33,077 nt of DNA from Candidatus Pacearchaeota archaeon (GTDB lineage Archaea > Nanobdellota > Nanobdellia > Pacearchaeales > GW2011-AR1). The translations under genes were made by a program, and so were the position numbers. Under the pieces are notes generated by a model that had not been told where the DNA came from, made no database searches, and saw only the letters and a list, made by a program, of their open reading frames with translations. The stretch's first letter is position 1. Each line of letters opens with the position of its first letter. Shown piece by piece: positions 2,827-31,959 of the stretch. The stretch is from the NCBI GenBank assembly GCA_018304165.1, contig JAGVWS010000003.1, positions 1-33,077 on the forward strand. The letters run 5' to 3'.

Positions 2827-2898
2827 ATTCATACCACTGCAAGATACATTGATAGGTTCACGCCCCCACCTGCTCGCATCCTCATTCTTAATAAATTT

Positions 2899-2958
2899 AT
2901 TTTACCTAAATGAGAACGCTCGGATTCAAAGTTCAAAGGTGGACGCTTCTCTGTCCGA
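2899..2958. repeat. 60-bp direct repeat, copy 2, abutting a tRNA
   Basis: This copy is identical to bases 1-60. On the minus strand it begins exactly inside the T-loop of tRNA-Glu, and it replaces the distal T-stem and 3' acceptor strand. The sequence beyond it at 2864-2873 reads, on the minus strand, AGGTGGGGGC, which would complete an acceptor stem with one T-stem mismatch. Confidence 0.9.
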
Positions 2959-3069
2959 TTCGAACCCGGGTTACCGGCTTTCTTCTGTCCTCCTGCTGGA
3001 GATATCGGAACCTTTTTGAGGTTCTGATCATCGAAAGGCCGGAGTCCTTGGCCTCTAGACTATGGGGGC
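2957..3069 (-). tRNA. tRNA-Glu(UUC), intron-containing, 3' end missing or interrupted
   Basis: Read on the minus strand, the 5' acceptor is GCCCCCA and the D-stem is GTCT/GGAC. The anticodon stem is CCGGC (3042-3038) with GCCGG (2978-2974), and the loop is C-T-T-T-C-G plus A after splicing. The anticodon is UUC. The canonical intron is 2980-3031 (52 bases) and contains GAACCT/AGGTTC and CTCC/GGAG hairpins. The T-arm starts normally (CCGGGTTCGAATC), but after C61 the expected CCGG plus TGGGGGC is absent and the 60-bp repeat follows. It may be a disrupted gene, an integration junction, or a gene with a second, non-canonical T-arm intron ending near 2874. Confidence 0.75.
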
Positions 3070-5731: not shown

Positions 5732-5848
5732 ATGAGCCTGCGCAGATTTGAACCTACAGACCACCAGCGGGTCTCTAGGCTGTCCTGCAACCTATTCAAA
5801 TCTGCTGATTGCTAATAAGGGAGTGAATGAGCCTGCGCAGATTTGAAC
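5732..5848. repeat. Duplicated tRNA 3' end (22-bp direct repeat, 95 bp apart)
   Basis: The 22 bases at 5732-5753 are identical to 5827-5848, the T-arm and acceptor 3' strand of tRNA-Ile plus its discriminator. The extra copy lies directly downstream of the gene and is preceded (minus strand) by a hairpin, AGACC/GGTCT, and by an inverted copy of the T-arm motif (TTCAAATCTGC, 5795-5805). No complete second tRNA can be folded. A duplicated tRNA 3' end is the usual footprint of integration into a tRNA gene, but the 95-bp spacing leaves no room for an element. Confidence 0.6.
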
Positions 5849-5980
5849 TGCGGACTTCCGGCTTTCTTAGCACGAATGCTGTGAAGCATTAATTGCCTTC
5901 AAATTTGCATTGATTTGCATCAGCGAAGGAAATCAACGTCGTATAAGACCGGCGTTCTAACCGGGCTGAACTACAGGCTC
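5828..5980 (-). tRNA. tRNA-Ile(UAU) with a 78-base intron
   Basis: The acceptor GAGCCTG pairs fully with CAGGCTC and the discriminator is A73. The D-stem is GTTC/GAAC and the T-stem is CGCAG/CTGCG around TTCAAAT. The anticodon stem CCGGT pairs with GCCGG (one G-U), and the loop reads C-T-T-A-T-A plus A after splicing, giving anticodon UAU, which reads AUA. The intron (5864-5941) is at the canonical site after base 37 and contains a 7-bp stem (TTGATTT/AAATCAA). Most archaea read AUA with a CAU tRNA modified to agmatidine; a UAU anticodon is uncommon and is known from a few reduced archaea. Confidence 0.82.
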
Positions 5981-12210: not shown

Positions 12211-12342
12211 AATTGATGCAGGAAAAACAACTATTTAAAGCTTTCTATTATGTTGTCTTTATTTGGTAGTTACATAATTGGTAGATTTGTATGGATTGTA
12301 AAAGTTCAGAACTTTTATAAATTGCTATTTGCTTTCATTGCT

Positions 12343-13635
12343 ATGAATAATACTGATTTTAATTTCAATTTCGGTGATAAGGTAAGACTCAAGATATCTG
12401 ACGAGGCAGTTGAAGGAACTATCTTAGAAAGCCCCGACAGCGAGTTTTATCTTGTTAAGCTGAAGAGCGGTTATAATATCGGAGTGCGAAAGGAGAATGT
12501 CAATAATGTTGCTGTTTTGGGGAAGGCGGAAGTTGTTAAGGAAAAACCTTTAGAGTTACCTAAGAATAGCCTTCCAAGAATAGACATTATAATGACGGGA
12601 GGAACAATTTCAAGCCGCGTGGACTACAAGACGGGAGGAGTTACCAGTTTAACTAAGCCCGAAGATTTCTTTAGGTTTTATCCAGAGATATTTGAAGTTG
12701 TACAAATAAACGAGGTGATGATGCCATTCATGAAACCATCGGAAAATATGGAGTATAAAGATTGGAAGGAGATAGGAGAGTGCGTTGAGAAATCATTAAA
12801 CAATCCGGAAGTTGAAGGAGTGATAATAACTCACGGAACAGACATACTTCATTATACCTCCGCAATACTATCCTTCTTTTTCCCGAAGCCAAACAAGCCG
12901 ATAGTGCTTACATTCAGCCAGAGAAGCACTGATAGAGCGAGCAGTGACGCTTCGCTTAACCTGCAGTGTGCAGCGCAGACGGCGACAAGCAATATTGCAG
13001 AAGTAGTAATAGTAGGACACGAAAACACGAACGATGACAGTTGTTATGCATTGCTTGGAACTAAAGTAAGAAAGATGCACTCAACAGCAAGAGATACTTT
13101 CAAGCCAATAAATACAGCACCTTTGGCAAGGGTATGGGCTGATGGGAAAATAGAGAAAATAACGCCATTCAGGGAAAGGTCTCCAAGAACAGAAAAGAAC
13201 GAGAAAGTTAAGGGAGATATAGTATTTAATGAAAAGATTGGAATGATAAAATTTTATCCCGGGCAAAAGCCAGAGATTCTTGAATATTATACCAAGAATT
13301 ATGAAGGATTAATAATTGAAGGAACAGGAATGGGGCATGTAATAACCGACGGAGAAAAAAACTGGATACCAATGATAAAAAAAGCAATTAATAACGGATT
13401 ACTGATATTCATGACTACACAAACAATAAAGGGAAGAACAAACAAATATGTTTATTCACCACTAAGAGAACTTAGCAAAGCGGGGGTAATCTTCCTGGAT
13501 GACATGCTCGCAGAAACAGCATTCGTAAAGCTTGGCTGGGTGATGGGGCACAAAGCATGGAAGGACAAGGAAATGATAAAGAAGAAAATGCTTGAGAATA
13601 TAAGCGGAGAGTTCAATGAGAGGATATTGAAATGA
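12343..13635 (+). CDS. gatD: Glu-tRNA(Gln) amidotransferase subunit D
   Basis: GatD is the asparaginase-like subunit that releases ammonia from Asn or Gln for GatE, which converts Glu-tRNA(Gln) to Gln-tRNA(Gln). The 430-residue protein has a short N-terminal beta-barrel (about 1-60) and the asparaginase domain. T88 in TGGTIS, T166-D167 in THGTD and K244 in RKMHS match the catalytic Thr-Thr-Asp-Lys set. Length is normal. A longer frame starts at 12250, but TTTTATAAA at 12313-12321 lies between the two ATGs and places transcription start near 12343, so the short form is right. GatE is encoded 2.5 kb downstream rather than adjacent. Confidence 0.95.
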   Translation: MNNTDFNFNFGDKVRLKISDEAVEGTILESPDSEFYLVKLKSGYNIGVRKENVNNVAVLGKAEVVKEKPLELPKNSLPRIDIIMTGGTISSRVDYKTGGVTSLTKPEDFFRFYPEIFEVVQINEVMMPFMKPSENMEYKDWKEIGECVEKSLNNPEVEGVIITHGTDILHYTSAILSFFFPKPNKPIVLTFSQRSTDRASSDASLNLQCAAQTATSNIAEVVIVGHENTNDDSCYALLGTKVRKMHSTARDTFKPINTAPLARVWADGKIEKITPFRERSPRTEKNEKVKGDIVFNEKIGMIKFYPGQKPEILEYYTKNYEGLIIEGTGMGHVITDGEKNWIPMIKKAINNGLLIFMTTQTIKGRTNKYVYSPLRELSKAGVIFLDDMLAETAFVKLGWVMGHKAWKDKEMIKKKMLENISGEFNERILK

Positions 13636-13651
13636 GGCAATCGGAAGCAAA

Positions 13652-16159: not shown

Positions 16160-17638
16160 ATGAGTAAAAGGCAGAGCACTTCATCTCGGAATGAAACAGC
16201 GCCTCAAAATAAAATAAGTGAGATAGCTGAAAATGAAATAAACGAAGTAGTTGAGATGAAGTGCGGGATTGAAATACATCAACAACTTAATACAGGAAAA
16301 CTATTTTGCAGATGCCCCTCAATATTGCGTTCCAATCCCCCGCACTTTACTATCAAGAGAAAACTTCATGTTGTCGCGGGTGAGAGCGGCGCCGTGGATA
16401 TTGCTGCAAAGCATGAAGCAGGAAAGGAGATGACTTTTGTCTATGAGTGTTATAAGGATAATACTTGCTTGGTTGAAATGGACGAGGAACCGCCTCATGA
16501 GATGGACAAAGAAGCTCTAAAAATTGTGATACAAATAGCCTTACTTCTAAATTGCGAGATACTTCCATTAACGCAGATAATGAGGAAGACTGTTATTGAC
16601 GGGAGCAACACTTCAGGATTCCAGAGGACGGCGCTGATAGCGAGGAAGGGATATATAGAAACTGCGAGCGGGAGAGTAGGGATTGACAGCATTTGTTTAG
16701 AGGAAGATGCTGCGAGGATAATAAGAAGCGACGAGAAAGAAAATATAAGAGTGTTCAGGCTTGATAGATTAGGAATTCCTCTGGTTGAAATTGCGACTGC
16801 TCCAGACATTAAGACACCGGAGCAGGCGAAAGAAGTGGCTCTTCATATAGGAGAAGTCCTCCGCGCTAGCAATGTCAAGAGAGGCATAGGAACAATAAGG
16901 CAGGATGTAAATGTTTCTGCCGGAGTGAATGGAAAGTGGGGCGCGCGCATTGAAATAAAAGGAGTTCAGGAGCCTGCACTAATAGAGAAGGCAATAATAA
17001 AAGAAATAGAAAGGCAGAAGGAGATGATAGCAGAAGGAAAGAGCACCGGAGAAGTGAGGAAGGCAAATGAAGACGGCTCAACAAACTTCTTAAGGCCGCT
17101 TCCGGGAGCAGCAAGGATGTATCCTGAAACTGACCTGCCCATATTAAGAATTTCCCGCGAGGAAATTAACGAAGCCAAGAAGAGCCTCCCAAAATTAAAG
17201 TCAGAAATGAGGGGAGAGTTGAGCAGGGCGGGCCTGTCACCAGAGTTCATCAAGCTGATAATTGAAAATAATAAGCTGGCAGAGCTGCAGGAATTATTAA
17301 GAGTCTATCAAAATCCAAACCTGATAGCTAAATTATTGGTTCTATGGCCGAGCGAAGTTTCAAGTAAGACAGGAAAGGACATTAGTAATATTGAGAAGAT
17401 GCTAACTTTGGATGTCCTTGAAACCATCCTCTTCGCAGTAAAGATGGGGAAGATAAGCGAGAGCAATGCGCGTGAATCGTTAGTAAAAATTATCAGCGGA
17501 GAAGATGTCAAGAAGGCACTTGTGTTTGAGAAGGCTGAAGACCTTGAGGAAAAAATAATGAAAATAGTGAAAGAAAAGCCGGGGCTGACGAAGCAGGCTT
17601 ATATGGGGCTCATCATGAAGGAGACTCTGAGACAATAA
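16160..17638 (+). CDS. gatE: Glu-tRNA(Gln) amidotransferase subunit E lacking the AspRS-like insertion domain
   Basis: GatE binds Glu-tRNA(Gln), phosphorylates the Glu side chain and transfers ammonia supplied by GatD. The cradle domain is well conserved (CGIEIHQQLNTGKLFCRCPS, MRKTVIDGSNTSGFQRTA, RLDRLGIPLVEIATAPDI, GTIRQDVNVS). The tail (about residues 335-492) is the helical plus YqeY-like tRNA-binding part. Family members are about 620 residues with a GAD (AspRS-like) domain inserted before the LRPLPGAARMYPETD motif. Here the chain runs straight from EKAIIKEIERQKEMIAEGK to that motif near residue 293, with no insertion. The frame opens at TTG 16157, but ATG 16160 is the likely start. Confidence 0.93.
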   Translation: MSKRQSTSSRNETAPQNKISEIAENEINEVVEMKCGIEIHQQLNTGKLFCRCPSILRSNPPHFTIKRKLHVVAGESGAVDIAAKHEAGKEMTFVYECYKDNTCLVEMDEEPPHEMDKEALKIVIQIALLLNCEILPLTQIMRKTVIDGSNTSGFQRTALIARKGYIETASGRVGIDSICLEEDAARIIRSDEKENIRVFRLDRLGIPLVEIATAPDIKTPEQAKEVALHIGEVLRASNVKRGIGTIRQDVNVSAGVNGKWGARIEIKGVQEPALIEKAIIKEIERQKEMIAEGKSTGEVRKANEDGSTNFLRPLPGAARMYPETDLPILRISREEINEAKKSLPKLKSEMRGELSRAGLSPEFIKLIIENNKLAELQELLRVYQNPNLIAKLLVLWPSEVSSKTGKDISNIEKMLTLDVLETILFAVKMGKISESNARESLVKIISGEDVKKALVFEKAEDLEEKIMKIVKEKPGLTKQAYMGLIMKETLRQ

Positions 17639-18775: not shown

Positions 18776-20095
18776 ATGAGCGTGGAAAGAAAAGAGAGGA
18801 GTTATGTAAATGTGATAAAAGAGGGAGAGAGCGTCCTGCTTAAGGGATGGGTTCACGAAATAAGAGACTTATCAAAAATGAAATTCATTCTTTTAAGAGA
18901 TGTGACGGGGATTGTGCAATGCGTAATAAAGGATGAGAAATTGCTTAAGGAAGCGCATCAATTAACGCTTGAAAGCGTTATAGAAATAAAAGGACAGGTG
19001 AACAAAGCGCAGGTCAAGGCGGAGCTCTCACGCAAGGACGTTGAAGTGCATGTAAAAGAATTAACGATAATAAGCAAGGCTGAAACACTTCCAATACAAG
19101 TCAATGAAAAGACGATAACGACGGATTTGCCGACAAGGCTTGACTGGAGGTATTTAGACCTAAGAAAACCGAGAAATTTATTGATATTTAAAATATGGAC
19201 TTTTATGGAAAAAGCAATGAGAGAATTTTGGGAGCAAGAGGGATTTATACAGATATATTCTCCTAAGTTCATGCCATCACCAAGCGAGTCTGGAGCAGAA
19301 TTGTTTAGCGTAGATTATTTTGGAAAAAAAGCATACCTTGCTCAAAGCCCGCAATTCTACAAACAAATGGCCATGGCTGCTGGATTTGAAAAGATATTTG
19401 AGATAGGACCTGTTTTTAGAGCTAATCGTTCCCATACTGTGAGGCACGACACAGAATTTACAATGATTGATATGGAAATGTCGTTTATTAATTCGCATGA
19501 AGATGTTATGAAAACAGAAGAGAGATGGATACATCATTTTATCAAAAGAGTAAGGGAAGAATATGGAGAGGAAATAAAAAAAGTATTTGGTACAGAGGTT
19601 GTTGTGCCAAAGATACCCTTTCCCAGAGTTACTATGGCAGAAGCGCAAAAATTTGTTAGAGATAAAGGATACAAAGGGCCAAATGATGATCTTGATGCTG
19701 AAGGAGAGAAGTTATTATTTGAAGTAATAAAGGATAAATTTAATCATGAATTTGTTTTTGTTAAGGATTATCCTTGGAGTGCCCGTCCTTTTTATCATAT
19801 GAGGCATGCTGACAAACCAAATATCACGAAAAGTTTTGATTTGATATGGAAGGGAACAGAGGTAACAACCGGAGCACAGAGGGAGCACAGGCATGATATA
19901 TTGGTAAAACAGGCTAAAGAGAAAAAGATAAGCCTTGAATTAATAAAGAATTATCTAGATTTCTTCAGATGTGGCTGCCCTCCACACGGGGGTTTTGCAA
20001 TAAGCCCGACAAGATTCCTTATGTTAATGTTGAACATAAAAAATGTCAGAGAAGCGACGTTTTTGCCAAGAGATACGGAGAGGCTAACGCCATAA
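18776..20095 (+). CDS. aspS: Aspartyl-tRNA synthetase (first copy)
   Basis: This 439-residue class IIb synthetase charges tRNA-Asp. The N-terminal OB-fold anticodon domain spans about residues 1-105. The catalytic core has motif 2 FRANRSHTVRHDTEF (about 212-226), AQSPQFYKQ for Asp/ATP binding, GTEVTTGAQREHRHD, and motif 3 GGFAISPTR (about 405-413). The usual motif 3 GLGxER is altered here, but its ATP-binding Arg is kept. It ends PRDTERLTP like archaeal AspRS. In the anticodon domain GWVHEIRD has His where discriminating archaeal AspRS has Trp; His is linked with non-discriminating enzymes that also charge tRNA-Asn. An amidohydrolase gene follows 6 bases after. Confidence 0.93.
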   Translation: MSVERKERSYVNVIKEGESVLLKGWVHEIRDLSKMKFILLRDVTGIVQCVIKDEKLLKEAHQLTLESVIEIKGQVNKAQVKAELSRKDVEVHVKELTIISKAETLPIQVNEKTITTDLPTRLDWRYLDLRKPRNLLIFKIWTFMEKAMREFWEQEGFIQIYSPKFMPSPSESGAELFSVDYFGKKAYLAQSPQFYKQMAMAAGFEKIFEIGPVFRANRSHTVRHDTEFTMIDMEMSFINSHEDVMKTEERWIHHFIKRVREEYGEEIKKVFGTEVVVPKIPFPRVTMAEAQKFVRDKGYKGPNDDLDAEGEKLLFEVIKDKFNHEFVFVKDYPWSARPFYHMRHADKPNITKSFDLIWKGTEVTTGAQREHRHDILVKQAKEKKISLELIKNYLDFFRCGCPPHGGFAISPTRFLMLMLNIKNVREATFLPRDTERLTP

Positions 20096-20101
20096 TAAAA
20101 A

Positions 20102-21031
20102 ATGACTAAGTTATATGATGCACATGCACATGTAGGAACAGACTACTTTTATCATAAAATAAAAAATTATGAAGAATTTGATTTTTCACTAAAAAAACTT
20201 TTAGAAAGAATGAAAAAAAATGGAGTAGAAAAATCAATTGTTTCACAATGCCCATCAATAAAAGAAATAACCTGTTGCGCATCAGCAGATATAAAAATAG
20301 AAAATAAAAAAATAGTGACACAATGTCCAAAATGTAAAAAGATATTAGCAAGATTAAATCATGACCCTTATAGAGATTACAACATAAAAATAGCAAGAGA
20401 AATAGAAGAACTAGGAGTAAAAGAAAAAATAATACCCTTCTTTATAATACACTTGCAAAATCCACTAATAAGAGAAGAAATAGACTTTTATAAAAAGAAT
20501 TATAAAAATTTTGGATTAAAATTTCACACATTAGTATCAAGAAGATCAATAATAAGTATAAAAGAAAAGATGAAAGGTCTGAATATTCCTCTATTAGTAC
20601 ATACAGGAGAAGAAACATATTGTCACCCAAATGAATTAGTAGAATTCTCAAAAAGTTATAAAGGAAAAATAATAATGGCACATGCAGCAAGATTATCCAT
20701 AGACTGTTTGAAAAAAGTTAATCAAATAAAAAACTTATTTGTAGATGTAACTCCATTAACCTCATTTTATAGAAGAATAATGGATGATGATTTTAAAACA
20801 ATACTAGAAAAGAAAGAAGCATTTAACCAGATAAGAGCACCATCAGATGTTTATCATTTTTTGTTAAAATACCTTGATTACAAAAAGCTATTATTTGGGA
20901 CAGATGCACCATGGTGTGATAAGTACGGGTTAGGATACGGATCAGAAGTAAAAATATTCAATGATTTAGAACTTAATTCTGAAATAAAAGAAAGCATAGC
21001 CTATAAAAATTTTGATAAATTATTTAATTAA
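20102..21031 (+). CDS. Amidohydrolase-2-type metal-dependent hydrolase
   Basis: The 309-residue TIM-barrel protein has the family's metal ligands: HAH in DAHAHVG (residues 8-10), His in FGLKFH, His in LLVHTGEE, His in IMAHAAR and Asp in LFGTDAPW near the C-terminus. A short insertion with two Cys pairs, CCASADIKIE then CPKCKK (about residues 58-80), could bind zinc. Relatives include decarboxylases and hydrolases of aromatic or amide substrates; the substrate here is unknown. It starts 6 bases after AspRS and must share its transcript. Its very A-rich codon use (runs of AAA, ATA and AGA) contrasts with AspRS, so it belongs with the transferred-looking island downstream. Confidence 0.82.
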   Translation: MTKLYDAHAHVGTDYFYHKIKNYEEFDFSLKKLLERMKKNGVEKSIVSQCPSIKEITCCASADIKIENKKIVTQCPKCKKILARLNHDPYRDYNIKIAREIEELGVKEKIIPFFIIHLQNPLIREEIDFYKKNYKNFGLKFHTLVSRRSIISIKEKMKGLNIPLLVHTGEETYCHPNELVEFSKSYKGKIIMAHAARLSIDCLKKVNQIKNLFVDVTPLTSFYRRIMDDDFKTILEKKEAFNQIRAPSDVYHFLLKYLDYKKLLFGTDAPWCDKYGLGYGSEVKIFNDLELNSEIKESIAYKNFDKLFN

Positions 21032-21058
21032 TTATTTAAAGTGAGTCACCTCTAGAAA

Positions 21059-21068
21059 GCTTTATAAA
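21059..21068 (+). promoter_or_regulatory. TATA box of the second AspRS gene
   Basis: GCTTTATAAA (21059-21068) lies about 28 bases before the ATG at 21093, and no ribosome-binding site is seen. The second AspRS therefore has its own promoter and probably a leaderless mRNA, rather than depending on readthrough from the first AspRS. Confidence 0.6.
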
Positions 21069-21092
21069 CCTTAATATGTTTACTACTATGAG

Positions 21093-22403
21093 ATGAATAA
21101 AAGGACTTTAATCCGGGATTTGCCTGGTAAGCATGGAGAATCTGTTACACTTGGTGGTTGGGTAGACAAGGTAAAAGATCAGAAAAGAATGCAATTCTTA
21201 GTGTTGAGAGACCACACTGGTTATCTTCAAGTAGTAAACGAAAAAGGATCAACACCTTATGATAATGTTGTATCATCATTAAGTAATGAATCTGTTGTTT
21301 ATGTTGGTGGTAAGGTCATTCCTAATCCTTCTGTAAGAACTGGTAATGGTTTAGAATTAAGGCTGGAATCAATAGATGTTGCAAATACCCCATCAGGAAG
21401 CCTACCTATTGATGCATCATCTAATATTGACGCAAGACTTGACTGGCGTTATTTAGATTTAAGAGACCCCAAAAAATTATTAATCTTTAAAATTCAAACA
21501 ACTGCTGAACATGCAATGAGGGAATGGTGGATGAATAATGGATTTATGGAAATTCACTCACCTAAACTTCTTGGTGCAGCTAGCGAATCAGGAGCAGAAT
21601 TATTCAAATTAGACTACTTTGGAAAAACAGCATGCTTAGCTCAAAGCCCACAATTCTACAAACAAATGGCAATGAGTGCAGGATTTGACAGAGTTTTTGA
21701 GATAGGACCTGTATTCAGGGCTAATTCTTCACACACAAACAGACATGACACAGAATTCACAAGCGTTGATATGGAAGTATCGTTCGTAAATTCACACGAA
21801 GATGTAATGGAAATTGAAGAAAATTGGTTAAACTATGTTTTATCAAGAGTTAAAACCGCTCATGGTGAAGAAATTAAAAGATCTTACGGTCAAGAATTAG
21901 AAATTCCATCAGTTCCATTCCCAAGAGTAACAATGGATGAAGCATATAGAATATTAGATTCACAAGGCTATGTTGTACCAAGAGAACAGAAAGGAGACTT
22001 AGACCCTGAAGGAGAAAGAAGACTTGCTAAACACATAAAAGAAACTTTCAATCATGACTTTGTATTTGTTACAGACTATCCAGCTAAATCAAGAGCATTT
22101 TATCACATGAGACATGAAGACAGACCTGATATAACTAAGAGTTTTGATCTAATATGGAAAGGAACAGAAGTAACAACAGGAGCACAAAGAGAACACAGAT
22201 ATGACAGATTAGTAAATCAAGCAACAGAAAAAGGAATTGATCCTCAATCAGTATCATCATACACTGACTTCTTCAAGTATGGAGTACCCCCACATGGTGG
22301 GTTAGGATTTGGACTAACAAGAATGCTAATGAATATTACGGGTCTAGAAAATGTAAAAGAAGTAACATTTGTATATCGCGGACCAAACAGATTGACACCT
22401 TAA
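21093..22403 (+). CDS. Aspartyl-tRNA synthetase paralogue (second copy)
   Basis: The 436-residue protein is clearly a full class IIb AspRS. It has the OB-fold anticodon domain (about 1-105), AQSPQFYKQMAMSAGF, motif 2 FRANSSHTNRHDTEF (about 208), GTEVTTGAQREHRYD, motif 3 GGLGFGLTR and the terminal NRLTP. It is strongly similar to the copy at 18776 through the catalytic core but diverges in the anticodon domain. There GWVDKVKD has Asp at the position that is His in copy 1 and Trp in discriminating archaeal enzymes. Codon use is more AT-rich than copy 1, suggesting transfer. It could charge a special tRNA, feed a biosynthetic pathway or be an inhibitor-resistant spare. Confidence 0.92.
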   Translation: MNKRTLIRDLPGKHGESVTLGGWVDKVKDQKRMQFLVLRDHTGYLQVVNEKGSTPYDNVVSSLSNESVVYVGGKVIPNPSVRTGNGLELRLESIDVANTPSGSLPIDASSNIDARLDWRYLDLRDPKKLLIFKIQTTAEHAMREWWMNNGFMEIHSPKLLGAASESGAELFKLDYFGKTACLAQSPQFYKQMAMSAGFDRVFEIGPVFRANSSHTNRHDTEFTSVDMEVSFVNSHEDVMEIEENWLNYVLSRVKTAHGEEIKRSYGQELEIPSVPFPRVTMDEAYRILDSQGYVVPREQKGDLDPEGERRLAKHIKETFNHDFVFVTDYPAKSRAFYHMRHEDRPDITKSFDLIWKGTEVTTGAQREHRYDRLVNQATEKGIDPQSVSSYTDFFKYGVPPHGGLGFGLTRMLMNITGLENVKEVTFVYRGPNRLTP

Positions 22404-22578
22404 AATTTTAAATTATAGTTTGTTAAATTGTTCCTTCTCATTTTTCACAACTTTAAGAAATTCAATTGATCTTAAATAATTCTTCATTTTTAACTTAAGA
22501 TCATCAATACTATTTATCGATAACTGCGTTAATTAATGTCCCACACCCTAGTATTTCGTAAAATAAAAATAAGATTAA

Positions 22579-22588
22579 TTTTATATAT
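22579..22588 (+). promoter_or_regulatory. TATA box of the Asx-RS-like gene
   Basis: TTTTATATAT (within 22579-22588) lies about 26 bases before the ATG at 22610 and has no Shine-Dalgarno sequence after it. It marks the start of a transcription unit that probably includes the methyltransferase at 24031 and the tRNA-Asn at 24866. Confidence 0.6.
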
Positions 22589-22609
22589 ACTCAAATATAC
22601 TATTCTCTT

Positions 22610-24034
22610 ATGAATAAGGGTATATCATTAAGAGAGGTTAAAAATATTGGTCCTGAATTTATAAAAGATTTTGTTGCTCGAGCTGATAATGGTAAGAATT
22701 ATACTTTTAAAGGAAGAATTACCGCAGTTAGAAATCATTCTAAAAGAACATTTTTTGATTTGTCAGATCATACTGGAACAATTCAAATAGTAATTGAGGA
22801 AGAAAAATTTAAAGATTATAAAGAGATAATCTCTTTGTCACCAGCATCATACATTGAAGTTAGCGGAGAATACTCTAACTCAAGACAACCCTCAGAATTA
22901 AAAGCTGACTCAATTAAAATTCTTTCAGAAGCAACTCTACCTCTATCTCCTACGCCTTGGAAAATAGATGGTTCTAGCTCAGATAATGTGAACCAAGTTT
23001 TTGGTTACACTGGTTTTTATTTAGCAAATCCTCAAAGAGCAGCAATACTAAAGATAAAAACAAACTTTGTTAATGCATTACATGAATACTTTCAAAATAA
23101 CAAATTTACTCTAGTTGAACCACCAATACTAACTAATAAAATACTATATGAACCTGAAAAAGCTATAAATGCTGAAGTGCATGGAGAAAAAGTATTCTTG
23201 TCACAATGTGCAACTTTTGAACTTGAAGCTTTAGCAATGGTCTTTGGAAAAGTTTACACTATCTCGCCAGCTTTTAGAAATGAAAAAGGTGGATCAAAAA
23301 GACACCTTGCAGAATATAGTCATGCAAAAGCAGAAGTTTTATTCGCAAACGTTGATGACCTAATATTTTTAGCCGGAGACTCAATTTATAACGCAATGAA
23401 AAAAACTGTTGAAATAAGTGGTAAAGAGTTAGAAATATTAGGTGTAAAAGTTGATTTAGAATTACTTAACCCAAAAAGTCATTTAAGCATGACTTATGAT
23501 GAGGCTGTAAAAATACTTCATGATAATGATTCTAAAATTGTTTATGGTGAAGGTCTAGCAAGAAGTGATGAAATGATTCTAACAAAACATGTTGGGAACA
23601 AATATCTCTGGGTTAAATTCTTACCTTTTGCTTCAGAAGGATTTCCTTATAAAAAAGTACTTGGTTCACCACATTTATCGATGACTTGCGATCTTATAGC
23701 CCCTCATGGAGCAGGAGAAATGGTGGGAGTAGCAGAAAAAACAACAGATATAGAAGAAATAATTGATAACTTAATAAAGAAAGGCAAAAAGAAAGAAATC
23801 AAAAGGTATTGGAAGTACGTTTTACTTAGAAAGTATGGTCTACCGTCTCATGGAGGAATAGGAGCTGCTCCAGAAAGAATCATTTATGGGCTATTAGGAT
23901 TAAATCATATAAGATTAACTAAACCTTGGCCAAGATACCCTGATAGAAAAATTAATCCAATAACAAAAGATAAACTGAATCCTTGGAAAGATAAAGATCT
24001 AGATAAAATAATAAAAAAATATAATCTAAAATGA
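22610..24034 (+). CDS. Third Asx-tRNA-synthetase-like protein (divergent class IIb)
   Basis: The 474-residue protein has an OB-fold domain (about 25-110: YTFKGRITAVRNHSKRTFFD, then GTIQIVI) and a class II core. Motif 2 is FRNEKGGSKRHLAEYSHA (near residue 221) and motif 3 is GGIGAAPERI (near 414), with the ATP-binding Arg kept. GEMVGVAEKTTD replaces the usual GEIIGGSERxxD of AsnRS. It is closer to AsnRS than to AspRS by motif 2 (HLAEY) and motif 3. Length exceeds AsnRS by about 35 residues, including a Lys/Pro-rich tail. A genuine AsnRS lies at 26604, so a separate role is likely. It overlaps the next gene (ATGA). Confidence 0.85.
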   Translation: MNKGISLREVKNIGPEFIKDFVARADNGKNYTFKGRITAVRNHSKRTFFDLSDHTGTIQIVIEEEKFKDYKEIISLSPASYIEVSGEYSNSRQPSELKADSIKILSEATLPLSPTPWKIDGSSSDNVNQVFGYTGFYLANPQRAAILKIKTNFVNALHEYFQNNKFTLVEPPILTNKILYEPEKAINAEVHGEKVFLSQCATFELEALAMVFGKVYTISPAFRNEKGGSKRHLAEYSHAKAEVLFANVDDLIFLAGDSIYNAMKKTVEISGKELEILGVKVDLELLNPKSHLSMTYDEAVKILHDNDSKIVYGEGLARSDEMILTKHVGNKYLWVKFLPFASEGFPYKKVLGSPHLSMTCDLIAPHGAGEMVGVAEKTTDIEEIIDNLIKKGKKKEIKRYWKYVLLRKYGLPSHGGIGAAPERIIYGLLGLNHIRLTKPWPRYPDRKINPITKDKLNPWKDKDLDKIIKKYNLK

Positions 24035-24851
24035 AAATTAATCAATCAGTTGTAGATAAAATCATAAATTATACCTCCCTTGTAGCAAACTCGGGACAAG
24101 TTAATACCCCCCTGGAAGTTATGGGACTATAAGAGAATGGATAATTCAATCATTCATAAATAGCTCTTCAAGAATTTTAGAAATAGGATGCTCAACAGGT
24201 TTTATAGCTTATCAAATAAATAAGCTAACAGGAGCAAAAGTAACAGGGATAGATTTATCAAAGGATAGTATAGAAAAAGCAAAAATGAACTGCTTGGGAA
24301 TGGAAGGATGTGAATTCTTTGTTAGTGATGCTATTAATCTAAATTTTAAAAATGAATCTTTTACTCATGTTATATTAGGGGGTCATCTTCCATGGGTTTT
24401 AGAATCTGAAAGAAGTAAACACCTAAAAGAAGCAGTAAGAGTTCTAAAAACTGATGGTTTTTTATTAACTTCACTTTATTATTTTTCAACTAAACCATCA
24501 AAAAACTTCTTAGATAAATTTAATAATGAGTTTGGAACTTCACTAACTGCTAATGGTGGATACAACTACTGGAGTTCATTGTTTCATATCCCAGAACTAA
24601 GTTTGTATTATGAATCAAATTACAAAATTATTTATCCATCAAACAAAAGAAAAAAAGCATATCTATCTGTATTCAACATTGATCATCTTCCAGAATGGGA
24701 AAATAAAGTTAATCTATTTATACAAAATGGAAATTATTTATCATTCTTCGTGAAAGTTTTTAGAAAAGAAAAAAACAATATTTACAGACAATATCCACGT
24801 GGGGGAATCTATACCTGGAAAAAAATTGATTTGGTAGAAAAAGAAAAATAA
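24031..24851 (+). pseudogene. SAM-dependent methyltransferase, frame broken at a C-run
   Basis: The ATG at 24031 overlaps the stop of the synthetase-like gene, implying coupling. That frame runs 33 residues and stops at 24130. The run of six C at 24107-24112 breaks it: with seven C the frame continues NTPPGSYGTIREWI into the rest, giving about 273 residues. The class I SAM-binding motif is RILEIGCSTGF, followed by VTGIDLSKDSIEKAK, ILGGHLPWVL and the post-I region ALRVLKTDGF-like EAVRVLKTDGF. The downstream part alone opens at 24285 after motif I. The break may be a real mutation or a homopolymer error; an intact gene elsewhere in the species is expected if it is an error. Confidence 0.8.
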
Positions 24852-24865
24852 TGAAAAAATTCACT

Positions 24866-24938
24866 GCCTCCATAGCTCAGTTGGTAGAGCACATGACTGT
24901 TAATCATGGGGTCCAAGGTTCAAGTCCTTGTGGAGACG
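24866..24938 (+). tRNA. tRNA-Asn(GUU), intronless, with a C2-A71 mismatch
   Basis: The cloverleaf is acceptor GCCTCCA/TGGAGAC, D-stem GCTC/GAGC, anticodon stem CATGA/TCATG with loop C-T-G-T-T-A-A (anticodon GUU), and T-stem CAAGG/CCTTG around TTCAAGT. The discriminator is G73, as usual for tRNA-Asn. Position 2 (C) faces position 71 (A), a mismatch in the acceptor stem; every other pair holds. No CCA is encoded. Unlike the other two tRNA genes here it has no intron. It lies 14 bases after the methyltransferase stop and 29 bases before the next gene, inside the island, so it may be co-transcribed and serve the pathway. Confidence 0.93.
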
Positions 24939-24949
24939 TTTATAAATAC
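24939..24949 (+). promoter_or_regulatory. TATA box directly after tRNA-Asn
   Basis: TTTATAAATAC begins at the base after the tRNA 3' end and lies about 25 bases before the ATG at 24968. It should start a leaderless transcript for the second methyltransferase and the radical SAM gene, separate from the tRNA-bearing unit. Confidence 0.6.
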
Positions 24950-24967
24950 AACCTTCGCTAAAATAAT

Positions 24968-25624
24968 ATGGACTGGGACAATTTATACATTAAACATCCA
25001 GAATTTTGCATAAAAGAACTTGCTGAAGAAGTAGTAGACTTTGTGCCATTATTAAAAAAATTACCTGGAAGTGAAAAAGAAAAGAAAGTATATGACTTGG
25101 GATTTGGTGCTGGAAGACATATATTATATCTTGCAAGGTTAGGATACAAAGTTTATGGTGATGACATATCAAACTCTGGTAAGGAAATAACTCAAAAACA
25201 ACTTGATAAAGAAGGATTAAAAGCTAAGCTTGGAATAAGTGATATGACTGTAATTCCTTATAAACATAATTTCTTTGATGCAATAATTAATAGAGGGGTA
25301 ATAACTCATAATACTCTTGATAACATAAAAAAATGTATTTCTGAAATGAATCGCACTATAAAAGTTGGAGGGTTAGTAATGACAACGTTTATATCAACTG
25401 AAAGCTCAGAATACGGAAAAGGAAAGGAAATTGAGCATAACACTTTTGTTCCAGATTCTGGGCCTGAAGAAGGAGTACCACACCACTTTGTTACAAAAGA
25501 AGAAGTTGAAATATTAATGTCATCATTTGAGATGATGAAACTCTACCATTACAAACATAAAGGCTTACTAAAAGTTGGAAATTATGTTTCAGCACACTGG
25601 ATTTATTTTGGGAGAAAAATATAG
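24968..25624 (+). CDS. Class I SAM-dependent methyltransferase
   Basis: The 218-residue protein has a complete Rossmann-type methyltransferase core. Motif I is VYDLGFGAGRHILYLARLG (about residues 41-59), then YKVYGDDISNSG with the acidic end of strand 2 (about 60-71), GISDMTVIPYKHNFFDAII, and a post-motif helix with VGGLVMTTFI. A His-rich stretch, GVPHHFVTKEEV, comes before the final strands. It resembles TehB/UbiE-type small-molecule methyltransferases, but the substrate is not readable. It has its own promoter after tRNA-Asn. The radical SAM gene follows 11 bases after its stop, so the two are an operon. Confidence 0.85.
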   Translation: MDWDNLYIKHPEFCIKELAEEVVDFVPLLKKLPGSEKEKKVYDLGFGAGRHILYLARLGYKVYGDDISNSGKEITQKQLDKEGLKAKLGISDMTVIPYKHNFFDAIINRGVITHNTLDNIKKCISEMNRTIKVGGLVMTTFISTESSEYGKGKEIEHNTFVPDSGPEEGVPHHFVTKEEVEILMSSFEMMKLYHYKHKGLLKVGNYVSAHWIYFGRKI

Positions 25625-25635
25625 AGAGTAATAAT

Positions 25636-26484
25636 ATGGTTTTTAATGGTATGTATTATTTATTGAATGCAAAATGTCCTCATTTATGTAATGGATGTTT
25701 TCTTGATTCTCAAATGAGTTACTCTGCAAGAAATTCTGATCAAGCAATTAGAGATTTAACACAACTAAAAGAAGACTGGAAAAAAATCAGAGTAACAGGA
25801 TCAAATGTTTTAAGATTTCTAAAAATTGAAGAAATATTAAAATTATGCGAACAGGATTATATTCTTGGTGATGTTTTCACAATTAAAAGAGATAAAGAAA
25901 GATTAGAAAGACTAAAAGAATCAGGACTAAAAAGAGTTTTTATAACCAGTTCATACTCTGATAATGTTACAAAAAAAGTTTCATTAGAAGAAGCATCTAA
26001 GGCAATAAAAAAATTAGGACTTGAATTAGCAATAAGTTATATTATGACACATAATAATAAAGGAGAAGTTGCTAATATGGTAGAAGAAGCAATTAGTGTA
26101 AATGCAAATTCAATGCGTTTTATGAGGTATTTACCAACTGATGAAAAACCAAATTCATTGAACCTAACTGATGATGAAGAAAGAGAATTAATTGATAAGA
26201 TATACAAATTAAGATCTGAAATACCTAAAGATAAAATAAAAATATTCATTCATGGACATTTTGGCACAAAATTTCGCCCATCAAAAGGACCAATATGCTT
26301 TGCTGGTGAAGAAATGTTCTTTATAGGTTTAGATAATCTTGTGTACCCTTGCGAATTTTTAATAAATCCAAATAATGTAATGGGAAAATTCTTTGAAGGA
26401 AAAGTAAAAATTGATAGGAAACTATGTGGTTATGAAAATGATGAATGTAAACTTCTACAAATGCATTCTGGAAGAAAGAGATAA
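25636..26484 (+). CDS. Radical SAM protein with divergent core and C-terminal cysteines
   Basis: The 282-residue protein opens MVFNGMYYLLNAKCPHLCNG, continuing CF. C14, C18 and C21 form the CxxxCxxC motif that binds the 4Fe-4S cluster and SAM. The GGE motif that normally follows is not recognisable (IRVTGSNVLRFL stands near that place). Late strands fit the barrel (KRVFITSSYSD, ELAISYIMTHNN, NSMRFMRYLPT). The C-terminal part has four further Cys (CFAGEE, YPCEF, KLCGYENDEC), suggesting a SPASM/twitch-like auxiliary cluster. Such proteins modify peptides or small molecules. It is in an operon with the methyltransferase at 24968. No precursor peptide is apparent nearby. ATG 25651 is an alternative start. 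Confidence 0.82.
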   Translation: MVFNGMYYLLNAKCPHLCNGCFLDSQMSYSARNSDQAIRDLTQLKEDWKKIRVTGSNVLRFLKIEEILKLCEQDYILGDVFTIKRDKERLERLKESGLKRVFITSSYSDNVTKKVSLEEASKAIKKLGLELAISYIMTHNNKGEVANMVEEAISVNANSMRFMRYLPTDEKPNSLNLTDDEERELIDKIYKLRSEIPKDKIKIFIHGHFGTKFRPSKGPICFAGEEMFFIGLDNLVYPCEFLINPNNVMGKFFEGKVKIDRKLCGYENDECKLLQMHSGRKR

Positions 26485-26514
26485 TAAAATGTTTGTAAAT
26501 TTTCTTATACAAAA

Positions 26515-26570
26515 CCTTTAAAATCTTTCAGATTTTAAGGATTTGGAATTTAAACCATAAAAAATTCCAA
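26515..26570 (+). promoter_or_regulatory. Two tandem hairpins between radical SAM gene and AsnRS
   Basis: Hairpin A pairs CCTTTAAAATCT (26515-26526) with AGATTTTAAGG (26530-26540), with one bulge and a 3-base loop. Hairpin B pairs TTGGAATTT (26543-26551) with AAATTCCAA (26562-26570), 9 perfect pairs. Hairpin A could end the island transcript; hairpin B is close to the AsnRS promoter. Tandem hairpins also precede AspRS (18611-18729), though the sequences differ. Confidence 0.5.
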
Positions 26571-26603
26571 AGCTTAATAAACATATATAAGTTCATTTTA
26601 ATT

Positions 26604-27926
26604 ATGATAAAAAAAACTGAAACAGAAAAGGAAGAACATTATACATCAATAGCCGACGCCCTGCGTCAAGGCTCTGGAAGAGTAGCAGTGCGCGGCTGGG
26701 TTTATCGCGAGAGGGGAAGCAACGAAATGAAATTCATAGTACTAAGAGATTCCAGCAATGTAATACAATGCGTGCTCAAGAAGGAGAAGTTCACTAAGCA
26801 ATGGGCAGATATAGACAAGATAAGAATTGAATCATCGCTTGAAATATGGGGAGAGATAAAGAAGGATGAAAGAGCACCGACGGGGTATGAAATAGTGGCT
26901 GATAAAATCACTATAGTGCACATCGCTGAAGAATTCCCTATAAACAAGGACTTGAATGAAGAGTTGCTGGGAGACAGAAGGCATTTATGGCTTAGAAGCA
27001 GAAAAATGACAGCTATATTGAAAATACGCTCAACAGTATTTCATGCTATAAGAGAATATTTCGAAAGCAAAAAATTCTACGAATTCCATAGCCCCTTCCT
27101 GATTCCGGGCGGGGCTGAAGACGGGCCGACGATGTTTGAGGTAAACTACTTCAAGAAGAAGATGTACCTTGCACAGACATGGCAGTTATACGCTGAATCA
27201 GCAATATTCTCTCTTGAAAAAATCTTTACCATTGCTCCCAGCTTCAGAGCTGAAGAAAGCAAGACAAGCAGACATCTAACAGAATACTGGCACGCAGAAA
27301 TGGAAATAGCATGGGCAGGCTTGAAAGAAATAATGAATTATGCAGAAGAATTAGTTAAGCATGTGATAAAGAGAGTGATTGATAATAACAAAGAAGAGCT
27401 GAAAATATTGGAAAGAGATGTAAAGAAGCTTGAGCCATCGCTAAAAAAATCCTTTCCAAGAGTAACTTATGATGAAGTGCTCAAGGAATTAAAGAGCAGG
27501 CACAGAATGGAAGTGGCATGGGGAAAGGACTTGAGAACTATTGAAGAAGAAAAATTCATGTCATTACACGATACTCCGGTATTCGTAACTCATTATCCAA
27601 AAGACACAATGGCATTCTACAAGCCACGCGACCCCAAAAATCCGAAGGTAGCATTATGCTTTGACATGCTTGGGCCAGAAGGAAATGGAGAAATAATAGG
27701 AGGAAGCGAGAGGGACATGGATGTTGAAGACATGAAAAAAAGCCTGAAAGCAAAAGGGGAAAAAATAGAAGATTATTCTTATTATTTTGATACGCGACGC
27801 TATGGAAACATCCCGCATGGAGGATTCGGAATGGGAACTGAAAGATTAATAAAATGGATATGCGGACTAGAAAGCATTAAAGACGCAATAGCATTCCCAA
27901 GAACACAAGGAAGAATGATACCGTAA
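26604..27926 (+). CDS. asnS: Asparaginyl-tRNA synthetase
   Basis: This 440-residue class IIb enzyme charges tRNA-Asn with asparagine. The OB-fold anticodon domain spans about 25-115 (VRGWVYRERGSNEMKFIVLR). The core has GDRRHLWLRSRKM, motif 2 FRAEESKTSRHLTEYWHAEM (about 213-232), the AsnRS signature GEIIGGSERDMD, and motif 3 GGFGMGTERLIKWI. It ends FPRTQGRMIP. All catalytic motifs are standard, unlike the protein at 22610, so this is the housekeeping enzyme. Its less A-rich codon use resembles AspRS copy 1, marking the right edge of the island. With an AsnRS present, the cell does not need transamidation to make Asn-tRNA. Confidence 0.95.
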   Translation: MIKKTETEKEEHYTSIADALRQGSGRVAVRGWVYRERGSNEMKFIVLRDSSNVIQCVLKKEKFTKQWADIDKIRIESSLEIWGEIKKDERAPTGYEIVADKITIVHIAEEFPINKDLNEELLGDRRHLWLRSRKMTAILKIRSTVFHAIREYFESKKFYEFHSPFLIPGGAEDGPTMFEVNYFKKKMYLAQTWQLYAESAIFSLEKIFTIAPSFRAEESKTSRHLTEYWHAEMEIAWAGLKEIMNYAEELVKHVIKRVIDNNKEELKILERDVKKLEPSLKKSFPRVTYDEVLKELKSRHRMEVAWGKDLRTIEEEKFMSLHDTPVFVTHYPKDTMAFYKPRDPKNPKVALCFDMLGPEGNGEIIGGSERDMDVEDMKKSLKAKGEKIEDYSYYFDTRRYGNIPHGGFGMGTERLIKWICGLESIKDAIAFPRTQGRMIP

Positions 27927-30720: not shown

Positions 30721-31951
30721 TAGGCATTACAATGAATTGATGGGCAACCAGTTAAAAAGGTATTTGCCAATAAAATCAGTGTACAGAGTGTAAAACAAAG
30801 TTTAGATGTTCTGGCAATAGATAAAATTGCTGAAGATTTGAATATCAAAGATTTAGAAAATCCTTATGTTCTTTCTCTAATTTATTCACAATTGTTAGAA
30901 AACAAAAGTATAAACAAACTTGAAAGTTGGATGAAGTACACAGAAATACCTTATCTGTTAGGCTTTGATAAAGTATCTGTTAAAAATCTTTATGAATCAT
31001 TATCTGATGTCAATGAAAAAGATTTTGAAAAGGTAAATGAAAAAATGTTTTTTATTTTTAACAAATATGAAGATATTTCTAAAGCCACAATTATTGATGT
31101 AACAGATACTTATTTTGCTGGAAGCAAAATAAATATTAAAAAAAGAAAAGGGAAAGATAAGAAAATAAGCAAATTAACTCAAATAGGTTTAGCAGTTTCT
31201 TTTGAGAATGGATTTCCAATTTTTCATAAACAATATCATGGAAATCTTTCTGGAATGGACCTAAAAAATAAGAAAATAGCGTCGATAATTATGGATAGGG
31301 GAATGCTTTCTAAAGAAAATATAGAGATGGCTTTAGAGTTAAAATTTAAAATTATTGCAGGTTTAAGAAAAAATTCTGCTTTAACTAAAACCTTTATTGA
31401 ACCAATAAAACGGGATGATATTTACTCTGCAAAATGCAGAGTTCCTTTAAAAAAGACAACTGTTTTCATAAAAGAATTTGATTATATGAAGGGGAAATTA
31501 ATAGTTGTTTACAATCCTGCTTTAGAAGTTGTGAAAAAAGAGATAAATTTTGAAAAAGAACTCGAAAGTAATTTTGATATAGGATATTCGTTAATTTACC
31601 ATAATACAAAATATTCTTCTGCGCAAGTTGTAAAAAGATATTATAATAAAGATATGATTGAAAGAGCATTTAAACAATTAAAAGGAGTTCTAAGTTTAAG
31701 ACCGATAAGAGTTTGGCTTTCAAATCATGTCGCAGGGCATATAAAAATTTGTTATCTTGCATATGCAATTTTATCTTTGATGAATTATAAATTGAAAAAA
31801 TTAGATATCTCTGCAGTTGAAGCTCTAGAATCTTTGAAATACGGCTATAAAGTAACTCTGAAAGATTCTACTTCAAATCATGAATGGAGCATTCATGTTC
31901 CTCTTGAACCTAAACAGAAAAAAATATTAAAAAAATTAAATGTAATGCCTA
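30721..31951 (+). mobile_element. IS1634/IS4-type element
   Basis: The left end TAGGCATTAC (30721-30730) and the inverted right end GTAATGCCTA (31942-31951) match perfectly over 10 bases, and similarity continues inward (ACAATGAATT against ACATTTAATT). The left end is itself half of a palindrome, GTAATGCCTA TTA TAGGCATTAC (30708-30730). The right end overlaps the last codons of the transposase gene. A TATA-like ATTTATATAC (30696-30705) lies outside the left end and may drive the gene. Confidence 0.6.
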
Positions 31952-31959
31952 AAAACTAG
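30838..31959 (+). CDS. IS1634/IS4-type DDE transposase, start codon unclear
   Basis: The 373 residues from a TTG at 30838 contain the catalytic residues: Asp in IIDVTDTYFAG (near residue 87), Asp in IIMDRGMLSKENI (near 150), and Glu in MIERAFKQLKG (near 274). IYHNTKYSSAQVVKRYYNKD is typical of the IS1634 group. The same frame is open back to about 30736 and encodes a plausible N-terminus (KKVFANKISVQSVKQSLDVL), but contains no ATG. An ATG in another frame (30747 region) would need a frameshift. The element may therefore be translated from a rare start or be slightly damaged. The frame ends at the right inverted repeat. Confidence 0.85.
   Translation: MNIKDLENPYVLSLIYSQLLENKSINKLESWMKYTEIPYLLGFDKVSVKNLYESLSDVNEKDFEKVNEKMFFIFNKYEDISKATIIDVTDTYFAGSKINIKKRKGKDKKISKLTQIGLAVSFENGFPIFHKQYHGNLSGMDLKNKKIASIIMDRGMLSKENIEMALELKFKIIAGLRKNSALTKTFIEPIKRDDIYSAKCRVPLKKTTVFIKEFDYMKGKLIVVYNPALEVVKKEINFEKELESNFDIGYSLIYHNTKYSSAQVVKRYYNKDMIERAFKQLKGVLSLRPIRVWLSNHVAGHIKICYLAYAILSLMNYKLKKLDISAVEALESLKYGYKVTLKDSTSNHEWSIHVPLEPKQKKILKKLNVMPKN

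Follow-up and report, generated by a model that had tools for sequence, protein, structure and literature searches.

An archaeal GatE without the AspRS-like GAD insertion, and the distribution of this architecture among related genomes

The window, by which we mean the whole stretch of 33,077 nucleotides of Candidatus Pacearchaeota DNA analysed here (contig JAGVWS010000003.1), encodes both subunits of a GatDE amidotransferase. The E subunit is unusual in its architecture. The features of the two genes are as follows.

12250..13638, plus strand: GatD partner subunit, 461 aa (NCBIfam, 446 v 310 bits)
16160..17638, plus strand: GatE without the GAD insertion, 492 aa (open reading frame, NCBIfam and PDB-chain matches)
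16259..17035, plus strand: first part of the cradle or catalytic domain, residues 34-292 (Pfam GatB_N, 25-sequence alignment)
17036..17056, plus strand: GAD insertion point, residues 293-299, a short linker where other GatE proteins carry about 130 residues of GAD
17090..17134, plus strand: LRPLPGAARMYPETD motif, residues 311-325, in the second part of the cradle domain (alignment)
17531..17635, plus strand: end of the tail (YqeY-like) domain, residues 458-492, without a Pfam GatB_Yqey match

The gatE gene is a single unbroken frame of 492 codons from an ATG at 16160 to a stop at 17636-17638, and the TTG codon that immediately precedes this ATG could serve as a start as well. For GatD, which is encoded near GatE in many relatives, the true start is likely at codon 32 (12343). 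The assignment as GatE is supported by two NCBIfam equivalog models that score above their curated cut-offs (PRK04028, 470 v 456 bits; TIGR00134, 430 v 320 bits), while the GatB equivalog models stay below theirs (176 v 338 and 164 v 315 bits). The only Pfam domain seen in the protein is GatB_N, the catalytic domain common to GatB and GatE (199 bits, residues 34-336).

Both NCBIfam GatE matches are split into two stretches, the first of which ends at residue 290 (model position 262-264), and the part of the model left unmatched between them is where the GAD insertion lies. The comparison with GatE chains of known structure leads to the same place. Alignments to 2d6f_C and 1zq1_C halt at residues 290-292 and restart at chain positions 375 and 390, so that about 110-130 residues of these chains are skipped; the alignment to bacterial GatB runs across residues 290-292 without a break. 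The GAD-less junction is common to 24 relatives in our alignment, which rules out an assembly error as the reason for the missing domain. In sequence terms, the absence of the AspRS-like GAD insertion at about residues 293-298 is thus confirmed. The first-pass annotation, made from the DNA letters, had called the protein a GatE that lacks GAD and has a continuous frame without a sequencing break, and on these three points we agree with it. It had also placed the motif that follows the cradle near residue 293. What lies at residue 293 is the site of the insertion; the LRPLPGAARMYPETD motif itself is found further downstream. The description of a chain that passes from the cradle straight to the motif is right in that no GAD intervenes, but the motif still belongs to the cradle domain.

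The catalytic core is conserved. Residues E38, H40, E181, E182 and E210, which we take to be equivalents of the metal and ATP site residues of GatB, are the same in every one of the 25 GAD-less GatE sequences aligned, including the one from the window. The fold predicted from the 25-sequence alignment (mean pLDDT 83) has a complete cradle together with helical and tail domains. Its best matches in the PDB are the GatE structures 1zq1 and 2d6f (E-values 4e-34 to 2e-32), followed by GatB structures (2e-26 to 2e-17). Compared with the relatives, about 15 residues are missing at the C-terminus. The remaining tail aligns with theirs, and a GatB_Yqey match is obtained for 24 of the 25 proteins but not for that of the window. 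Judged by alignment and predicted fold, the GAD-less GatE has the domain layout of bacterial GatB.

We searched the rest of the genome (866 kb in 42 contigs, 79% complete) for proteins that could stand in for the missing domain or for GatE as a whole. A separately encoded GAD, which the first-pass annotation had named as a result that would speak against its view, was not found: PF02938 has no match at E<=10 anywhere in the recovered genome, although it is matched in 14 of 14 control genomes. The recovered genome also has no second GatB or GatE homologue, the single one being the GatE near GatD. It encodes a single class Ic synthetase of the Glu/Gln type, which is of GluRS type, and no GlnRS. 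As neither GatB nor GlnRS was recovered, GatDE appears to be the only route to Gln-tRNA in this 79% complete genome. A GAD protein or a GatCAB may lie in the missing fifth, although among the listed family members only G296 has GAD. We infer from the conservation and from the absence of an alternative that the window protein is a working GatE that amidates Glu-tRNA(Gln); most likely it is ordinary in function and variant in architecture.

The genes for Asn-tRNA and Asp-tRNA formation lie downstream of gatE.

18776..20095, plus strand: archaeal-type AspRS, copy 1 (Pfam, NCBIfam)
21093..22403, plus strand: archaeal-type AspRS, copy 2, 53% identical to copy 1 (Pfam, NCBIfam)
24865..24939, plus strand: tRNA-Asn (GUU)
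26604..27926, plus strand: AsnRS, the direct route to Asn-tRNA (NCBIfam)

With an AsnRS encoded, amidation of Asp-tRNA(Asn) is not needed. A divergent AsnRS-like protein at 22610-24034 scores below every NCBIfam cut-off. Altogether, four class IIb synthetase genes of the Asp/Asn/Lys type are packed into 9 kb (18776-27926), with the tRNA-Asn gene between them, and two AspRS copies are retained in an archaeon that has AsnRS. An IS1634-type transposase gene is located at 30838-31959.

We consider it about 80% probable that the window encodes a shortened E subunit of GatDE from a Pacearchaeota-type DPANN archaeon, with a GatB-like layout, in which the GAD domain is dispensable and the substrate is selected on the basis of the A1:U72 pair. 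According to reviews, the features of tRNA-Gln that GatDE recognises are its A1:U72 pair and its D-loop (PMC9499178). The tail domain rejects tRNA-Glu by way of the smaller D-loop of tRNA-Gln, and the helical domain contributes to binding, not to selectivity (PMC4810234). Neither review (PMC9499178, PMC4810234) states a role of GAD in selectivity. In the genome of the window, tRNA-Gln has A1:U72 and A73, and tRNA-Glu has G1:C72. The first-pass annotation had concluded that the lineage must recognise its substrate differently. This does not follow, because the A1:U72 pair is kept and GatB selects its tRNA without GAD.

The D-loops require a more detailed discussion. Those of tRNA-Gln are mostly of 9 nt, in genomes with short and with long GatE alike. 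Those of tRNA-Glu have 11 nt in the long-GatE genomes sampled, but 9 nt in the order of the window. When 371 genomes of the phylum were searched with two patterns, the 9-nt D-loop of tRNA-Glu was found in 59 of the 72 genomes of this order and the 11-nt D-loop in one; model searches added the 9-nt form in 8 more. Outside the order, the D-loop of tRNA-Glu has 11 nt in 101 long-GatE and 90 short-GatE genomes, and 9 nt in family f13 (long) and in f63, f78, f81 and AR20 (short). A single 9-nt match in genome G354 (family f17) looks, by its sequence, like a Pacearchaeota contaminant. A tight coupling of D-loop contraction to GAD loss was looked for and not found, since f13 combines the long form with 9 nt and the 90 short-GatE genomes keep 11 nt. 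The 9-nt D-loop of tRNA-Glu is a fixed trait of the order, uncoupled from GAD loss across the phylum. As this loop now has the size found in tRNA-Gln, its size cannot serve to tell the two tRNAs apart in Pacearchaeota. Discrimination against Glu-tRNA(Glu) in this order is therefore probably based mainly on A1:U72 versus G1:C72. The D-loop data are evidence, independent of GAD, that discrimination has changed in this order; the change may or may not be linked to the loss of GAD.

The window itself contains one such tRNA-Glu gene.

2861..3069, minus strand: interrupted tRNA-Glu (UUC) gene with a 9-nt D-loop (pattern match; extent and introns assigned by eye)

The gene appears to be interrupted twice, by an intron that follows position 37 and by an insert within the T arm. 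Neither ARAGORN nor Rfam detected it when the window was scanned. Another interrupted tRNA gene, of 153 bases (5828-5980, minus strand), has an Rfam match and was missed by ARAGORN. Inserts in or beside the D-loop, apparently introns in an unusual place, were seen in tRNA-Glu genes of three other genomes (L249, G092:C2; L252, G364:C61; L253, G050:C33). The tRNA-Gln(UUG) of the window's genome has A18/G55 in place of the near-universal G18/U55, and is present in two identical copies (L108 and L109, G000:C36:907-979 and 2462-2534). The A18/G55 combination was also found in a tRNA-Glu(CUC) (L251 of G273), and a tRNA-Met (L213 of G108) apparently has C18/G55. Altogether, position 55 is other than U in 4 of the 159 distinct tRNAs read.

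The strongest competing explanation is that the loss of GAD lowers or widens the choice of substrate. GatDE would then be less selective and possibly act on Glu-tRNA(Glu) and Asp-tRNA(Asn) as well, with discrimination moved to GluRS, a transamidosome or EF-1A. Such a relaxation would fit the shortened tail of the window GatE, the altered elbow of tRNA-Gln(UUG) and the disappearance, from tRNA-Glu of the same order, of the larger D-loop that is the reported cue for the tail (PMC4810234). However, the contrast of A1:U72 and G1:C72 is retained, AsnRS removes any need to amidate Asp-tRNA(Asn), and D-loop and GAD part company both in the 90 GAD-less genomes outside the order and in f13. We therefore regard a less selective enzyme as unlikely, and favour the shortened but ordinary GatDE.

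The first-pass annotation had treated the loss of GAD as a peculiarity of one lineage, which is not borne out by a survey of the phylum. GatE was found in 363 of the 371 genomes. By profile score, about 196 of these have the short, GAD-less form, about 155 the long, GAD-containing form (a class that may contain a few truncated genes, as it was assigned by score), and 12 only fragments. Among families, 46 have only short forms, 40 only long forms, and 10 are mixed. The distance from the RQD.N to the RP.PG motif is strictly bimodal among the sequences read, with 58-69 residues in one group and 188-213 in the other. The short form also occurs in relatives from named genomes, in Pacearchaeota and others. 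In the family of the window, none of the members listed has a Pfam GAD match except one genome, G296. Many Woesearchaeota-type genomes with short GatE do contain GAD, in open reading frames of 580-770 aa that, judged by size only, look like bacterial-type AspRS. A Pacearchaeal GatE (L021) was also found on a contig titled Patescibacteria (JAHYJW010000001.1), a bacterial metagenome assembly to which it is probably misassigned. In the literature searched, we found no paper on GAD-less GatE or its biochemistry, and no account of the role of the GAD insertion in GatE. The architecture is thus widespread, evolutionarily labile and, in this literature, undescribed. The absence of GAD from many GatE proteins, which the first-pass annotation had foreseen as an objection, holds for predicted proteins and not for characterised ones.

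Trees of GatE were built without the GAD columns and rooted by sampling, without an outgroup. On these trees, presence and absence of GAD require 6 changes, with a bootstrap range of 5-7. Placing all GAD-less forms in one clade is rejected by an AU test (p 4e-31), and with it a single ancient loss of GAD. A clear separate loss is that of L135 (f51), which is nested inside a long clade, and the sequences of L146 and L152 represent a probable further one. Every separate loss led to the same junction length, as would be expected from clean excision of a self-folding insert. Genome G296 is the apparent case of a change in the other direction. The core of its GatE (L158, G296:C40) nests inside Pacearchaeota (support 100/99), and identity to the Pacearchaeal short forms is 72% in its N-terminal part and 55% in its C-terminal part; to long forms, the values are 59% and 33%. 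Its GAD, in contrast, clusters with those of L029 and L179 (support 98/97). From these sequences, GAD was apparently regained by recombination in an otherwise GAD-less family, although the long branch of this GAD weakens the claim. GAD would then be a dispensable module, apparently lost several times and regained once.

Could the short form instead be ancestral and GatB-like, with GAD inserted later in other archaea? The sister family GatB has no GAD, and the short-form junction aligns to GatB without a break. Yet GAD is present in euryarchaeal and Sulfolobus control genomes, the two solved GatE structures are long, short forms such as L135 in f51 are nested in long clades, and the AU test argues against a single short clade. 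We consider an ancestral short form improbable, more so than relaxed selectivity. An artefact of sequencing, binning or gene calling, or a decaying GatE copy with the real one elsewhere, deserves hardly any credence: the assembly is fragmented and incomplete and the C-terminus of the protein is short, but the same junction in every close relative refutes an artefact as the cause of GAD absence, the genome has no other homologue, and the catalytic motifs are intact.

In the preferred reading of a shortened GatDE subunit, a non-discriminating GluRS would make Glu-tRNA(Gln), GatD would free ammonia from an amide, and GatE would activate the glutamate and then amidate it. The tRNA would be held by the cradle, helical and tail domains, which would recognise A1:U72 in the way that GatB recognises its own determinant in the first pair. 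GAD would be a self-folding, dispensable module that was excised on several occasions in the phylum, always at one boundary, and reinserted by recombination in one genome. In the order of the window, moreover, tRNA-Glu no longer has the larger D-loop that lets the tail reject it. That a working enzyme can do without GAD is exemplified by GatB.

With respect to known systems, the window protein resembles the GatE of M. thermautotrophicus (2d6f) and P. abyssi (1zq1) in its equivalog-level match, catalytic cradle, helical domain and GatD partner, but has neither their GAD of about 130 residues nor the final part of the tail. The missing module is the GAD of bacterial AspRS (PF02938). To bacterial and organellar GatB, the B subunit of GatCAB, it is similar in having a cradle without GAD, a helical domain and, in the predicted fold, a tail domain (shortened and without a GatB_Yqey match), and this fold matches 3h0l, 2g5i and 3al0. 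It differs from GatB in scoring far below the GatB cut-offs, and in having GatD rather than GatA and GatC as its probable partner. As about 196 relatives lack GAD, this domain is not treated here as a defining feature of the GatE family.

A more far-reaching scenario, which we find doubtful, is that the whole sorting of tRNA-Gln and tRNA-Glu was rebuilt in Pacearchaeota. The rebuilding would have involved GAD and the D-loop of tRNA-Glu and, in the species of the window, also the tail and the elbow of tRNA-Gln(UUG). The two tRNAs would then be told apart by the first base pair alone or by the complex of GluRS with GatDE. GAD itself would be a module for specificity or docking that recombination can swap from one GatE gene to another. 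Under the preferred, simpler reading, a shortened GatDE that selects by A1:U72, the absence of GAD is no proof that the tRNA is read differently.

Both solved GatE structures are of GAD-containing proteins, and for about half of this archaeal phylum neither domain-based annotation nor the expected size is a reliable guide to GatE. GAD was lost independently several times and apparently regained once, in proteins with intact cores and in genomes with known tRNA sets, which amounts to a natural experiment on the role of this domain.
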